Origin: Zoogloeaceae bacterium
Lineage (GTDB): Bacteria > Pseudomonadota > Gammaproteobacteria > Burkholderiales > Rhodocyclaceae
Direction: 5' to 3'
DNA length: 15,312 nt
Assembly (NCBI GenBank): GCA_031282665.1
Contig: JAITDH010000216.1
Span: 1 to 15,312, forward strand
Shown one piece after another: positions 3,873 through 8,012 of this stretch (positions are counted from its first letter, which is position 1; each line of letters begins with the position of its first letter). A program made the translations under genes and the position numbers. The notes under the pieces are model-generated. The model worked only from the letters and a program-made list of their open reading frames with translations, was not told where the DNA came from and searched no databases.

Positions 3873-4019
3873 CAGGATCAGGATCAGGGATCAGATGTCA
3901 GGGATCAGGAGACAGAGGACAGAGCGCGCGCGTTGCGTGGTCAGTGGCCGTATGCGCGTGGTTTGCTTCTTCTGATACCTGATTCCTGATACCTGATGCC
4001 GAAGGCCTGTCCTCTGTCA
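3873..4019 (+). repeat. Dispersed heptamer-based intergenic repeat, copy 1
   Basis: First copy of an element shared with 5397-5545 and 7873-8012. It opens with two CAGGAT hexamers and then six contiguous heptamers that each begin with CAG (3885-3926: CAGGGAT, CAGATGT, CAGGGAT, CAGGAGA, CAGAGGA, CAGAGCG). Next come the GC block GCGCGCGCGTTGCG, a GTGGTCA/GTGGCCG part (about 3938-3951), the tandem CTGATAC, CTGATTC, CTGATAC, CTGATG (3972-3998), and a closing GTCCTCTGTC that is complementary to the CAGAGGACAG near the start. The right-hand GC hairpin is reduced to AAGGCCT. It fills the hrpA-proximal half of the 356-nt gap 3859-4214, which holds no gene I can support; the other half is the promoter and leader of the XRE gene. 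Confidence 0.85.
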
Positions 4020-4043
4020 TTACACAAAATTGTAAGAATGTTA

Positions 4044-4071
4044 TTGCGCATACGACAAGAGTTTATATAAT
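4044..4071 (+). promoter_or_regulatory. Sigma-70-type promoter of the XRE gene
   Basis: TTGCGC (4044-4049), a 16-nt spacer and a perfect TATAAT (4066-4071) predict transcription from about 4078. That leaves a leader of about 137 nt before the ATG at 4215. The region is clearly richer in A and T than its surroundings. A small inverted pair CCATGT/ACATGG (4121-4126 and 4135-4140) lies in the leader. Confidence 0.65.
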
Positions 4072-4075
4072 TGTG

Positions 4076-4098
4076 CAAACATTTTTCAAAAATGTTTG
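4076..4098. promoter_or_regulatory. Perfect 11-bp inverted repeat at predicted transcription start: candidate operator
   Basis: The left arm CAAACATTTTT (4076-4086), one central C (4087) and the right arm AAAAATGTTTG (4088-4098) form a perfect dyad with no mismatch. It spans roughly -2 to +20 of the promoter at 4044-4071, where a bound repressor would block initiation. XRE-family regulators often bind such dyads and repress their own gene, so the adjacent regulator is the natural candidate ligand. There is no long T-run after it, so a terminator role is less likely. Confidence 0.55.
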
Positions 4099-4214
4099 GG
4101 AACCGACAGTCGTTATATCTCCATGTCGCATGAAACATGGCAGCGCGCGATGATAATGGCAGATATGGCAGCCTTGACGTTCGTTTACTACATCTAATGA
4201 TTGAGAGGGAAACC

Positions 4215-4526
4215 ATGAGCAACGAAAAAACCCCGGACACCTTGAACCCGCGCGAGATCCGCCATCGCCTCGGCCTGAACCAGCAGCAGTTCTGGTCCAG
4301 GATCAACGTCACGCAGAGCGGCGGCTCCCGGTACGAAAGCGGCCGCAACATGCCGAAGCCCGTGCGCGAGCTTCTGCGCCTTGTCCATGTCGAGCAGATC
4401 GACATCTACAAGCTGAAGCGCGAGGACGTCGAAGTCGCCGAATACCTGAAAAAATACGAGCCGGAGCTTTTCAAGTCCCTGAAAAAGCAGGCGAGAGAAA
4501 AAAAGAAAAACCACGATAACAACTAA
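4215..4526 (+). CDS. Small XRE-type helix-turn-helix transcriptional regulator
   Basis: The product is 103 residues. Residues about 12-50 form a single HTH: NPREIRHRLGLNQQQFW is followed by the recognition-helix segment VTQSGGSRYESGRNMP (32-47), which matches the XRE/Cro pattern of a glutamine-rich second helix and S-R-x-E-x-G-R. The C-terminal half is charged and helical and ends in a lysine-rich tail. There is no second domain, so an effector is not evident. Start: ATG 4215 has AGAGGG 5 nt upstream. An in-frame ATG at 4137 lacks a ribosome site and would add 26 residues that do not look like this family. The gene is monocistronic: own promoter at 4044, terminator at 4545. It converges with the radical SAM gene, with 23 nt between the stop codons. 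The target genes are unknown; autoregulation is inferred from the operator-like dyad. Confidence 0.85.
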   Translation: MSNEKTPDTLNPREIRHRLGLNQQQFWSRINVTQSGGSRYESGRNMPKPVRELLRLVHVEQIDIYKLKREDVEVAEYLKKYEPELFKSLKKQAREKKKNHDNN

Positions 4527-4544
4527 CTCCAAACTTTAGCCCGC

Positions 4545-4587
4545 GGGCGTCAGGGGGAAACTTGCACCCTGACGCCCGTTTTCTTTT
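4545..4587 (+). terminator. Rho-independent terminator of the XRE gene
   Basis: GGGCGTCAGGG (4545-4555) pairs perfectly with CCCTGACGCCC (4567-4577) around an 11-nt loop and is followed by GTTTTCTTTT. The T-rich tail exists only on the plus strand. The left arm and loop contain the stop codon (4552-4550) and last codons of the convergent radical SAM gene, and the right arm lies wholly inside its coding sequence. Confidence 0.85.
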
Positions 4588-6406: not shown

Positions 6407-6442
6407 AGCGTTCTCCTTGCGGCATGTCGATGCCGCCGCCGG

Positions 6443-6991
6443 TTAAAAATGAGGCTTCTTCTGGCTGCTTTCGAAGCGTTCGATGGAAGACAGGATTTCC
6501 TCCCTGGCGGCTTCGATATTTTTCCAACCCCGGATTTTCACCCATTTTCCGGCCTCGAGATCCTTGTAATGCCGGAAAAAATGCTCGATTTGTTGTAAAA
6601 GCAGGGGTTGCAGGTCGTCTATATTGCGGATTTCATTGTACAGGGGGGTCAGCTTGGCGACCGGCACGGCGATCACCTTGGCATCCACGCCCGCTTCATC
6701 CTCCATCTCCAGCATGCCCAGCGGGCGGCAATGCACCACCACGCCGGGTTGCAGCGGACAAGGCGCGATGACCAGCGCATCCACCGGATCTCCATCCTCG
6801 GAAAGAGTATGCGGGATGAAACCATAGTCGCAGGGATAATGCATCGGCGTCGCCATGAAGCGATCCACCAGGACGCAGCCGGAAGCCTTGTCCAGCTCGA
6901 ACTTGATGCCCGGCGTCTGGGCGGGAATCTCGATGACGACATTGAAACTGTGGGGAACGTCCTTGCCGATGGAGAGGGCGTCGATATTCAT
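6443..6991 (-). CDS. ppa: Inorganic pyrophosphatase, family I
   Basis: The product is 182 residues (E. coli Ppa has 176). It hydrolyses PPi to two phosphates in the cytoplasm with Mg2+ and pulls biosynthetic reactions forward. The metal-binding signature is D66-G-D68-P-V-D71 (EDGDPVDAL). The other metal and substrate residues are D98, D103 and K105 (EDEAGVDAKV), with the substrate-binding Y52 and Y56 region (MHYPCDYGFIPHT) before them. All are present, so the enzyme should be active. The start at 6991 is preceded by GGAG with about 7 nt spacing. The unknown membrane-anchored gene ends 41 nt upstream and glnB follows 36 nt downstream. Confidence 0.97.
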   Translation of the reverse strand: MNIDALSIGKDVPHSFNVVIEIPAQTPGIKFELDKASGCVLVDRFMATPMHYPCDYGFIPHTLSEDGDPVDALVIAPCPLQPGVVVHCRPLGMLEMEDEAGVDAKVIAVPVAKLTPLYNEIRNIDDLQPLLLQQIEHFFRHYKDLEAGKWVKIRGWKNIEAAREEILSSIERFESSQKKPHF

Positions 6992-7023
6992 TCGTGGCTC
7001 CGTGGGGAAAAGAAAAAGGCGCG

Positions 7024-7029
7024 ATTATA
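7024..7029 (-). promoter_or_regulatory. Candidate -10 box of ppa
   Basis: Read on the minus strand a perfect TATAAT sits within GTGAATATATAATCGCGCC, just after the stop codon of the upstream gene. It predicts a start about 25 nt before the ppa ATG. No good -35 box is visible at 16-18 nt. The -10 box is followed by a GC-rich discriminator. Confidence 0.4.
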
Positions 7030-7032
7030 TAT

Positions 7033-7719
7033 TCACTTGGCTTCCAGCGGCGCCACGATTCGCCGCGTGAAATCGGCCGGCGCGACATATTGCAGGATTT
7101 CCTTTCCCTTCGCGTCGATGACCACGTCCAGCCCTTTTTCCGGATACAGGTAATGACGCAGGGTTTCGCCCGCCGGAACGATGGCGGCTGGCTCGCCGAA
7201 GCGCTGCCTGACGATTTCCTCGTCGAGGCTGGCGCTGGGAATCAGGGTGATGGCGGCCAGCGGAAAGGTCCTGGCCAACCGGACGTCATCGGGATGCAGG
7301 GTGAATTTCCGGCTGCCGCTGCCCATGTATTCGCCCTTGACGGTGCGTTTCAGCATGGCGACCAGCGTTTCCTCGGGCACCTCGACCGTCAGGATGAGCC
7401 TGCCCTGCACATAGCCGAGGGTAAGCTGGTTGTAATAGCCTTCCAGCGCGGCGTCTTTCGCTTCCCTGTCCGCCGGGACATCCTTGGCGATGATGACGCC
7501 CAGCTCCATCTCCCCGAAACGCGCCTCCGCCTCGGCCAGCGTGCTTTTCCCCGGCGTCAGTCCGAAAACCACGCTCTCGCCCGGAGGATCGATGGCGATG
7601 TCCCAGGGCAGGTTCTCGGCGGACGACGTTTCCACGTCCGGGGAAGAAAAGAAAAGGGGCAGGGTGAAAAGCAGCGCGACCAGCGCCAGGAAGGAAAGGA
7701 AGGCGAACAGATATTTCAT
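7033..7719 (-). CDS. Hypothetical membrane-anchored protein
   Basis: I do not recognise a family. From ATG 7719 the product is 228 residues. Residues about 1-26 (MKYLFAFLSFLALVALLF, then TLPLFFSS) form one strongly hydrophobic segment after a single lysine, suggesting a signal anchor or an uncleaved signal peptide; no lipobox cysteine is seen. The rest is soluble, mixed alpha/beta, and probably periplasmic. Two short related stretches, GLTPGKSTLAEAEARFGE (about 53-70) and SLDEEIVRQRFGEPA (about 165-180), resemble each other and recall small periplasmic domains of the BamE/SmpA kind, but this is only an impression. No catalytic motif is seen. Start: 7719 places the hydrophobic segment at the N-terminus but has no Shine-Dalgarno; an in-frame ATG at 7779 has GGAG 8 nt upstream and would add 20 residues. 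It lies 41 nt upstream of ppa. Confidence 0.75.
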   Translation of the reverse strand: MKYLFAFLSFLALVALLFTLPLFFSSPDVETSSAENLPWDIAIDPPGESVVFGLTPGKSTLAEAEARFGEMELGVIIAKDVPADREAKDAALEGYYNQLTLGYVQGRLILTVEVPEETLVAMLKRTVKGEYMGSGSRKFTLHPDDVRLARTFPLAAITLIPSASLDEEIVRQRFGEPAAIVPAGETLRHYLYPEKGLDVVIDAKGKEILQYVAPADFTRRIVAPLEAK

Positions 7720-7872
7720 CGTCGGGAGAGGAAAGGGAAAGGAGCATCGTACTACAGGCAGGGTGCAGAGGACACCCATTATCCGTTCTCCCTCGCCGCC
7801 GCAAAGGGCACATTCGCTGCACGAATCACATCCCCTTCCGTATTCTTGTCTTGGCTTGCGACGAATCGCGCC

Positions 7873-8012
7873 AGACAGAGGACAGAGCGCGCGCGTTGCG
7901 CGCTTTGTAGTCAGTAGTCAGTGACCGGAGAGTGTGGTTTTCTTCTGATTCCTGATTCCTGATTCCTGATCCCAAAGGCCGCGCCAGCGGCCGCTCTGTC
8001 CTCTGTCCTCTG
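7873..8012 (+). repeat. Dispersed heptamer-based intergenic repeat, copy 3 (best preserved)
   Basis: The copy is bounded by a perfect 15-bp inverted repeat: GACAGAGGACAGAGC (7874-7888) and GCTCTGTCCTCTGTC (7993-8007), the latter extended by another CTCTG. Inside lie AGCGCGC-GCGTT-GCGCGCT (hairpin, 7886-7904), the tandem GTAGTCA, GTAGTCA, GTGACCG (7907-7927), the tandem CTGATTC, CTGATTC, CTGATTC, CTGATCC (7945-7972), and the hairpin GGCCGC-GCCA-GCGGCC (7977-7992). No target-site duplication is obvious. The 333-nt gap 7720-8052 holds this element and no gene. The 133 nt between it and the unknown membrane-anchored gene presumably contain that gene's promoter, which I could not place firmly. Confidence 0.9.

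Follow-up and report, generated by a model that had tools for sequence, protein, structure and literature searches.

What are the three structured intergenic segments that lie within 4.1 kb on contig JAITDH010000216.1 of a Zoogloeaceae bacterium (assembly GCA_031282665.1), and how did they come to be there? The window, that is the whole stretch of 15,312 nucleotides that was analysed, had been described in an initial annotation as carrying a dispersed intergenic repeat family that looked like either a non-autonomous mobile element or a repeat akin to repetitive extragenic palindromes (REPs) and bacterial interspersed mosaic elements (BIMEs). We found that the segments belong to an interspersed family of heptamer-ended, hairpin-bearing elements, which is real and apparently undescribed, and whose dispersal is well supported. 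On balance, these elements are probably non-autonomous, stem-forming mobile elements with an anatomy like that of REPINs (inverted REP doublets) and miniature inverted-repeat transposable elements (MITEs), with heptamer ends that would vary in length by slippage. A unit would measure about 90-230 bp, its inward-facing CNGRNNN arrays pairing to form an outer stem that encloses GC-rich arms.

Sequence comparison confirmed the common block order of the three segments, each of which represents an element of 140-150 bp (3873-4019, 5397-5545, 7873-8012). Their leading 18-mer, GACAGAGGACAGAGCGCG, has 4 matches in the window at up to three mismatches, compared with 0.04 expected in shuffled sequences. 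The elements and their parts are the following:

3873..4019, plus strand: element copy 1, between the divergent hrpA (minus) and RsaL-like helix-turn-helix (HTH) gene (plus)
5397..5545, plus strand: element copy 2, between the divergent radical SAM gene (minus, start 5398) and queD (plus, start 5590)
5420..5446, plus strand: hairpin 1 of copy 2, ACAGAG-CGCGC/GCGCG-CTCTGT
5517..5542, minus strand: hairpin 2 of copy 2, GGCCGCGCAGCGGCC, right end truncated to CTCTGG
7873..8012, plus strand: element copy 3, the most complete, between a divergent hypothetical gene (minus) and zapE (plus)
7882..7908, plus strand: hairpin 1 of copy 3, ACAGAG-CGCGC/GCGCG-CTTTGT, its foot including a G.T pair; relatives have modules of this kind
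7973..7998, minus strand: hairpin 2 of copy 3, an inverted module, CAGAGCGGCCGCTGGCGCGGCCTTTG on the minus strand
15301..15312, plus strand: edge of a further TCAGGNA array, 3 bp past the stop codon of spoT/relA (which ends at 15297)

The blocks and their order had thus been recognised correctly; what had been overlooked is that the repeats follow a heptamer grammar, that the blocks fold jointly and that copy 1 has a right end. A tandem CTGATTC, to which the reverse complement of TCAGGNA corresponds, had been noted, and this tandem block is real; in fact, every tandem block is a seven-base repeat, made up of phased units with the sequence GACNGAR at the outer ends, GTCNGTR inside, and TCAGGNA/TNCCTGA. 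Aligned on CNG, all heptamers collapse into one degenerate heptamer, mainly C[A/G]GRRR[A/T], of which the C, the G and part of the remaining positions are fixed by the search expression itself. A second hairpin and an end block had been ascribed to copies 2 and 3 only, which is true for copy 3; copy 1, whose hairpin 1 is decayed, does possess a short second palindrome (GCCGAAGGC, 3998-4006) followed by an outer right array (CTGTCCTCTGTC, 4007-4018), and copy 2 lacks CTCTGTCC, its right array being lost. Copy 2 ends immediately upstream of a TATAAT at 5546-5551, with CTCTGG three bases before it. The fourth edge at 15301 was seen again: TCAGGAATCAGG begins there, and the array is cut by the end of the window.

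The outer arrays face inward and are predicted to pair as a stem around the GC hairpins. For copy 3 (7868-8012) the predicted DNA fold is a cloverleaf (z -6.0; 0 of 200 shuffles as stable) consisting of an outer stem of heptamers (7874-7887 paired with 7994-8012), hairpin 1, hairpin 2 and, between the two, a middle arm formed by pairing of the inner AGTCAGT heptamers with TTCCTGA units. The predicted folds of copy 1 (3881-4019; z -4.1) and copy 2 (5405-5545; z -2.9) were matched in stability by none and by one of 200 shuffles, respectively; in copy 1 the heptamers CAGGGAT/CAGATGT/CAGGAGA/CAGAGGA pair with TTCTGATACCTGATTCCTGATACCTGA, and its right array stays unpaired. Folded alone, hairpin 1 reached z -3.7 in copy 2 (5405-5465; 0 of 200 shuffles) and z -3.6 in copy 3 (7868-7926).

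The same anatomy recurs in other genomes (genomes, contigs and loci are given below by our own G, C and L numbers). Among 75 complete elements found automatically, the 61 of at most 230 bp were folded, yielding a median z of -5.1, with z below -2 in 54 and mutual pairing of the outer arrays in 52; some rows of this set overlap (overlapping loci, nested elements) and are not fully independent. Four automatic calls (L195, L198, L215, L223) are probably chance heptamers and were retained in the counts. In 36 neighbouring pairs of arrays with at least three units each, lying within 200 bp, the arrays faced inward in 28 cases, outward in 3 and in the same direction in 5. The elements thereby show the size (about 100-400 bp) and the terminal inverted repeats that are typical of MITEs.

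Within this frame the cores differ between genomes. GACAGA-hairpin-CTTTG/CTCTG is common to 83 module rows, a number that includes overlapping starts and a frame that is partly built into the search pattern; the stems vary (GCGCGC, GCTCGC, GGCCGC, GGCC, GGCGC), and their pairing is mostly kept. Many modules of G002 have heptamers on both sides of each hairpin. G012 and G006 possess a different common core, here too combined with two hairpins and inverted GACAGAR arrays, whereas the cores of G001 contain a single hairpin, and three such cores follow one another in tandem; at 1979-2275 of L001 (G001) the single-hairpin element is repeated three times head-to-tail with heptamer spacers. G255, outside the genus sample, follows this double-hairpin grammar as well, judging by eye, although its middle sequence is a different one. 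Arrays of at least three units range from 3 to 18 units, and solitary arrays with no core evident by eye also occur; complete elements, unlike such stand-alone arrays, have cores that are common to several copies. At 10076-10490 of L236 (G068) a repeat of about 200 bp with one-sided heptamer arrays is present in three tandem copies. By eye, L225 (G002:C337) near 5683 and L123 (G012:C134) near 9005 carry different cores at what appears to be the same gene end, a possible hot spot.

The initial annotation had called for a search of relatives with copy 3, and this search (query 7868-8016) produced many matches: at E <= 0.01 there were 68 in G002 and 18 in G001, distributed over many contigs, and at E <= 1e-4 a match was found in 12 of 60 relatives. 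As far as relatives show, the outcome that would have spoken against a mobile family, few copies and no empty sites, did not occur. The exact 18-mer occurred seven times in genome contigs, five times outside the Zoogloeaceae and twice in Zoogloeaceae metagenome-assembled genomes (G002, G001), both of which look like termite-gut isolates. Several of the matches in relatives are located near contig ends.

More generally, the pattern (GACDGAR)x3, counted with overlapping windows, was present in 10 of 20 genomes of the genus with 14 to 240 matches each and absent from the other 10, while its reversed control gave 0 to 19 matches in the positive genomes and none in the rest. Two pattern-negative genomes, G003 and G013, nevertheless each have two places with TCAGGNA arrays, three or four units long, so that pattern-negative does not mean heptamer-free. 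In the family sample 18 of 297 genomes were positive (6 of them in the genus) and in the order sample 11 of 399, both samples including G002; many of these genomes had only one or two matches, and the reversed control gave 1 to 7 matches in a few and 39 in G255. The more specific module ACAGAG-N10-24-CTTTGTRGTC matched 59 times in 6 of 33 chosen genomes (25 in G002, 21 in G004, 6 in G255, 5 in G001, and one each in G008 and G016; a few of these overlap), its reversed control a single time in all (G003). In a tree built from three proteins of 16 genomes plus the window, the genomes with the GACNGAR pattern did not group as a single clade.

Tandem Repeats Finder arrays of period 7 made up 60 of 204 arrays in contigs of G012 chosen for their elements (mostly ACAGAGG/AAGACAG) and 52 of 156 in those of G002, compared with 17 of 172 in unselected G012 contigs (282 kb), where only some are of this heptamer type. 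None of 31 arrays had this period in seven genomes lacking the GACNGAR pattern, of which 69 kb of loci were analysed. The 38 unselected G012 contigs contained nine arrays of at least three units, compared with 0.6 in shuffles. Copy 3 found no match at E 1e-5 in phage and plasmid records, and neither the 18-mer nor the hairpin module matched in IMG/VR. Thirteen IMG/VR contigs (L285-L297; GC content 43-71%) do contain CAGAGGA/CAGAAGA arrays of nearly four units or more, which shows that the heptamer itself is not specific to the element family; at least two of these contigs (L287, L291) display inverted array pairs by eye.

If the elements are mobile, orthologous sites in relatives should be found empty, and this was the case at two of the three window loci. 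Between the radical SAM gene and queD no heptamer array was present in any of the 16 relatives in which the interval was recovered, and the distance between the aligned ends is 58-112 bp in these relatives versus 191 bp in the window; nine of the 16 have the GACNGAR pattern elsewhere in their genome. In G013 about 15 bases separate the start codon of the radical SAM gene from CCCTATAAT, G018 being alike, and the equivalent gap in the window is filled by the element directly upstream of the TATAAT. Likewise, the interval between hrpA and the HTH gene is array-free in all four relatives with this gene order. The zapE site lacks synteny in the 14 relatives with zapE: their flanks, examined over some 1.5 kb at most and over only about 0.1 kb in one relative, did not contain the hypothetical gene.

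Another view of occupied and empty sites is provided by a prophage contig of G012 (L108, G012:C88) that encodes tail, baseplate, tail-terminator and repressor-like proteins according to PHROGs. Its intergenic gaps hold seven elements, which are oriented both ways and have almost identical cores; four of these elements leave at most 18 bp on either side. The element between genes p2 and p3 (845-982) is flanked on both sides by an 18-bp direct repeat, CTCAAATGACCATTGATT, which spans the overlapping stop and start codons of p2 and p3, so that both genes keep them. In the homologous p2-p3 pairs of G018 and G019 the genes nearly touch, with no element between them. The empty sites and these near-identical copies support the initial annotation as to a dispersed family of intergenic elements.

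The elements are biased towards intergenic DNA: 32 of 39 complete elements overlapped a called gene by no more than 40 bp, while non-coding sequence makes up 18% of the 720,682 bp considered (binomial probability about 6e-18). Genes were called with a codon-weighted caller trained on the window genes, the three window copies were entered by hand, and 40 of the 80 contigs of relatives in this count had been chosen for holding elements. Among 38 elements with two neighbours, 26 lie between co-directional, 10 between divergent and 2 between convergent genes, roughly as expected from intergenic length, with fewer convergent cases. In the window itself each of the divergent intergenic regions 3859-4214, 5399-5589 and 7720-8052 holds one element; in the convergent and co-directional gaps no complete element was seen, save for the array edge after spoT. 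The window genes identified by Pfam have a housekeeping character and comprise an HrpA-type helicase, the RsaL-like HTH protein, radical SAM, queD, P-II, ppa, the hypothetical gene, zapE, an H-NS-like protein and spoT/relA; judging from their translations, SurE, pcm, nlpD and rpoS are presumably encoded as well.

Which enzyme could move such elements? The REP-associated tyrosine transposases (RAYTs) are obvious candidates. The profile NF047646 gave matches above the cut-off in 9 of 29 chosen genomes, among them the genus carriers G006 and G015 and six of the nine chosen carriers outside the genus (G068, G099, G374, G388, G614, G645); one of the matches is located at L097. PF01797 was above the cut-off in 7 of 20 genus genomes including G004, which also has one weak RAYT fragment. 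No RAYT exceeded the NF047646 cut-off in G001, G002, G004 and G255, the genomes that hold 57 of the 59 module matches, although drafts may lack genes. Pattern-negative G018 encodes two RAYTs and has no array-pattern match. Of 23 above-cut-off RAYT loci, 15 were examined, and none of these had an array of at least three units in flanks of up to 1.5 kb; in one of them, L261 (G614:C1), a two-unit CAGGAGACAGAGGA array at 1227-1240 is separated by 261 bp from the RAYT match (1501-1911). A GTAG/CGTC tag at the 5' foot of the palindromes is absent: the outer foot in the window is GGACAGAG, with GTAG or GTGG on the inner 3' side (in relatives this frame is set by the search pattern). Taken in the strict sense, the suggestion of a REP/BIME repeat in the initial annotation could therefore not be upheld.

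How, then, might the elements have spread? In the scenario that we favour, an enzyme acting in trans would copy the folded unit into gaps between genes, whereupon the heptamer arrays would lengthen or shorten by replication slippage; the mobile form may be single-stranded or cruciform DNA, and a protein might recognise the stem or the foot of the hairpins. Several observations weigh against this scenario. No mobilising enzyme was found in the profile searches with PF01797 and NF047646 or in the flanks of RAYT loci, and an autonomous transposon with the same ends was not recognised in the sequences read, which were not searched systematically for one. A flanking duplication above chance occurred in only 1 of 75 elements, the 18-bp repeat of the prophage contig, in a test whose reach does not extend to duplications of a few bases, and the presence of a different sequence of about 280 bp without heptamer arrays at the p2-p3 junction of G003 (L151, G003:C210, about 1093-1426) implies that this spot tolerates other inserts. 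The bias towards intergenic DNA, taken by itself, may be a product of selection and not of targeting. In the unselected G012 contigs only two complete elements were called automatically, both of them doubtful, which indicates that the copies in this genome are clustered. The units of left and right arrays did not match beyond chance (119 of 1000 permutations were as good), and there is accordingly no sign that one arm was copied from the other. Finally, the region of hairpin 1 in copy 1 (z -0.09) and hairpin 2 alone in copies 2 and 3 (z -1.1 and -1.2) were not significant; the predictions for single hairpins carry less weight than those for whole elements.

A dedicated enzyme might not be needed at all if arrays grow by polymerase slippage and cores spread by template switching or ectopic recombination, an account that we regard as possible and yet clearly the less probable one. 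It draws on the wide range of array lengths, the arrays without evident core, the lack of both consistent duplications and an enzyme, and on slippage being the published suggestion for heptamers (PMC4679880, PMC4692102). However, slippage alone does not yield the inward orientation of most array pairs, and whole units with inverted arrays and conserved cores have appeared at new places, including prophage gene junctions and the queD site, where all 16 relatives lack the element. That the elements are of the REPIN/BIME type and moved by RAYTs seems unlikely. Like REPINs (PMC3116915) they are inverted palindrome doublets that are intergenic and foldable, and the RAYTs in carriers outside the genus, together with the two-unit array near the RAYT of G614, speak for this alternative; because of those carriers we have raised our estimate for it and slightly lowered that for the reading we prefer. 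Within the genus, in contrast, RAYTs do not track the arrays, as illustrated by the module-richest genomes on the one hand and by G018 on the other, and both the foot tags and, at the 15 RAYT loci examined, arrays of at least three units are missing.

Fixed regulatory or terminator elements, kept for their function at promoters or gene ends, would explain why all three window copies lie between divergent genes and why hairpin 1 of copy 3 scores as terminator-like. This is very improbable, since the elements are absent from the same sites in relatives, their contexts roughly track intergenic length and both orientations occur in one row of prophage genes; terminator-like sites between 3700 and 8200 number 7 compared with 5.0 (sd 2.3) in shuffles, a count not clearly above background. 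A local duplication in the window or an assembly artefact, which the location of three copies within 4.1 kb might suggest, deserves practically no weight and is refuted by the copy 3 matches on many contigs of G002 and G001 and by the occurrence of the array pattern in half of the genus genomes. At the other extreme, it is conceivable, albeit quite improbable, that the family is part of a widespread, undescribed class of stem-forming mobile DNA with CAG-phased heptamers as recognition ends; the arrays of Beggiatoaceae, cyanobacteria, Xanthomonas and viral contigs would then, like those described here, be traces of one kind of machinery, perhaps a nuclease recognising the stem that the heptamers form or a polymerase that synthesises them.

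Mobility of a non-autonomous, stem-forming element thus remains our preferred reading. As the heptamers form the arms of discrete dispersed elements, they suggest a connection of simple repeats with mobile DNA that can be put to the test; the heptamer stem, the ACAGAG/CTTTGT foot and the GC hairpins define a substrate for an enzyme search. The elements also affect how these genomes are read, being situated at promoters, in tight gene junctions and, in several cases, near contig ends.

With regard to known systems, no Rfam family matched the window above the gathering score, and no description of the element family was found in the open-licence PMC literature as judged by titles and the beginnings of abstracts; as a text string, GACAGAGGACAGAG appeared in one paper only, on human lung cancer (PMC4963474). 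REPINs, inverted REP doublets for which spread by RAYTs has been proposed (PMC3116915), and BIMEs are similar in being non-autonomous, intergenic inverted pairs of GC-rich imperfect palindromes with larger folds. In contrast to these, the elements described here end in variable-length tandem heptamer arrays and have an ACAGAG/CTTTGT foot. GTAG- and CGTC-tagged REPs together with RAYT relatives flanked by terminal inverted repeats have been described (PMC3733652), whereas our elements have no such tag, and the four module-richest genomes have no RAYT above the cut-off. REPs are mainly located between unidirectional and convergent open reading frames according to the same source (PMC3733652), whereas divergent pairs are not avoided here (10 of 38). 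MITEs, defined by a length of about 100 to 400 bp and terminal inverted repeats (PMC3116915), are comparable in both respects. Examples are ERIC and NEMIS, from which the elements differ in the degenerate, variable-length array at each end, in the lack of a consistent target duplication and in that no autonomous partner was recognised in the sequences read. As a structural analogy only, the terminal repeat of adeno-associated virus also combines a stem with tandem short repeats and two GC hairpin caps; its sequence and biology are unrelated, and no replication protein is known for the elements.

The closest parallels to the ends themselves are heptanucleotide repeats, likewise tandem intergenic seven-base units with a patchy taxonomic distribution. 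TAACTGA has been reported from Beggiatoaceae, cyanobacteria and Bacteroidetes (PMC4679880), and a survey cited there names heptanucleotides as the most abundant long simple repeats in most repeat-rich genomes; GGGAATC occurs in Xanthomonas, where an inverted array pair was noted, and GGGGA(T/C)T in Nostoc (PMC4692102). The reverse complement of TAACTGA, TCAGTTA, and a rotation of GGGAATC, TCGGGAA, show a likeness to our TCAGGNA and CGGGAAT units that may be due to chance. Heptanucleotide repeats have been published as arrays, whereas in our family such arrays serve as the arms of compact elements whose hairpin cores are conserved. The element family thus combines the palindrome doublets of the REP type with heptanucleotide repeats.

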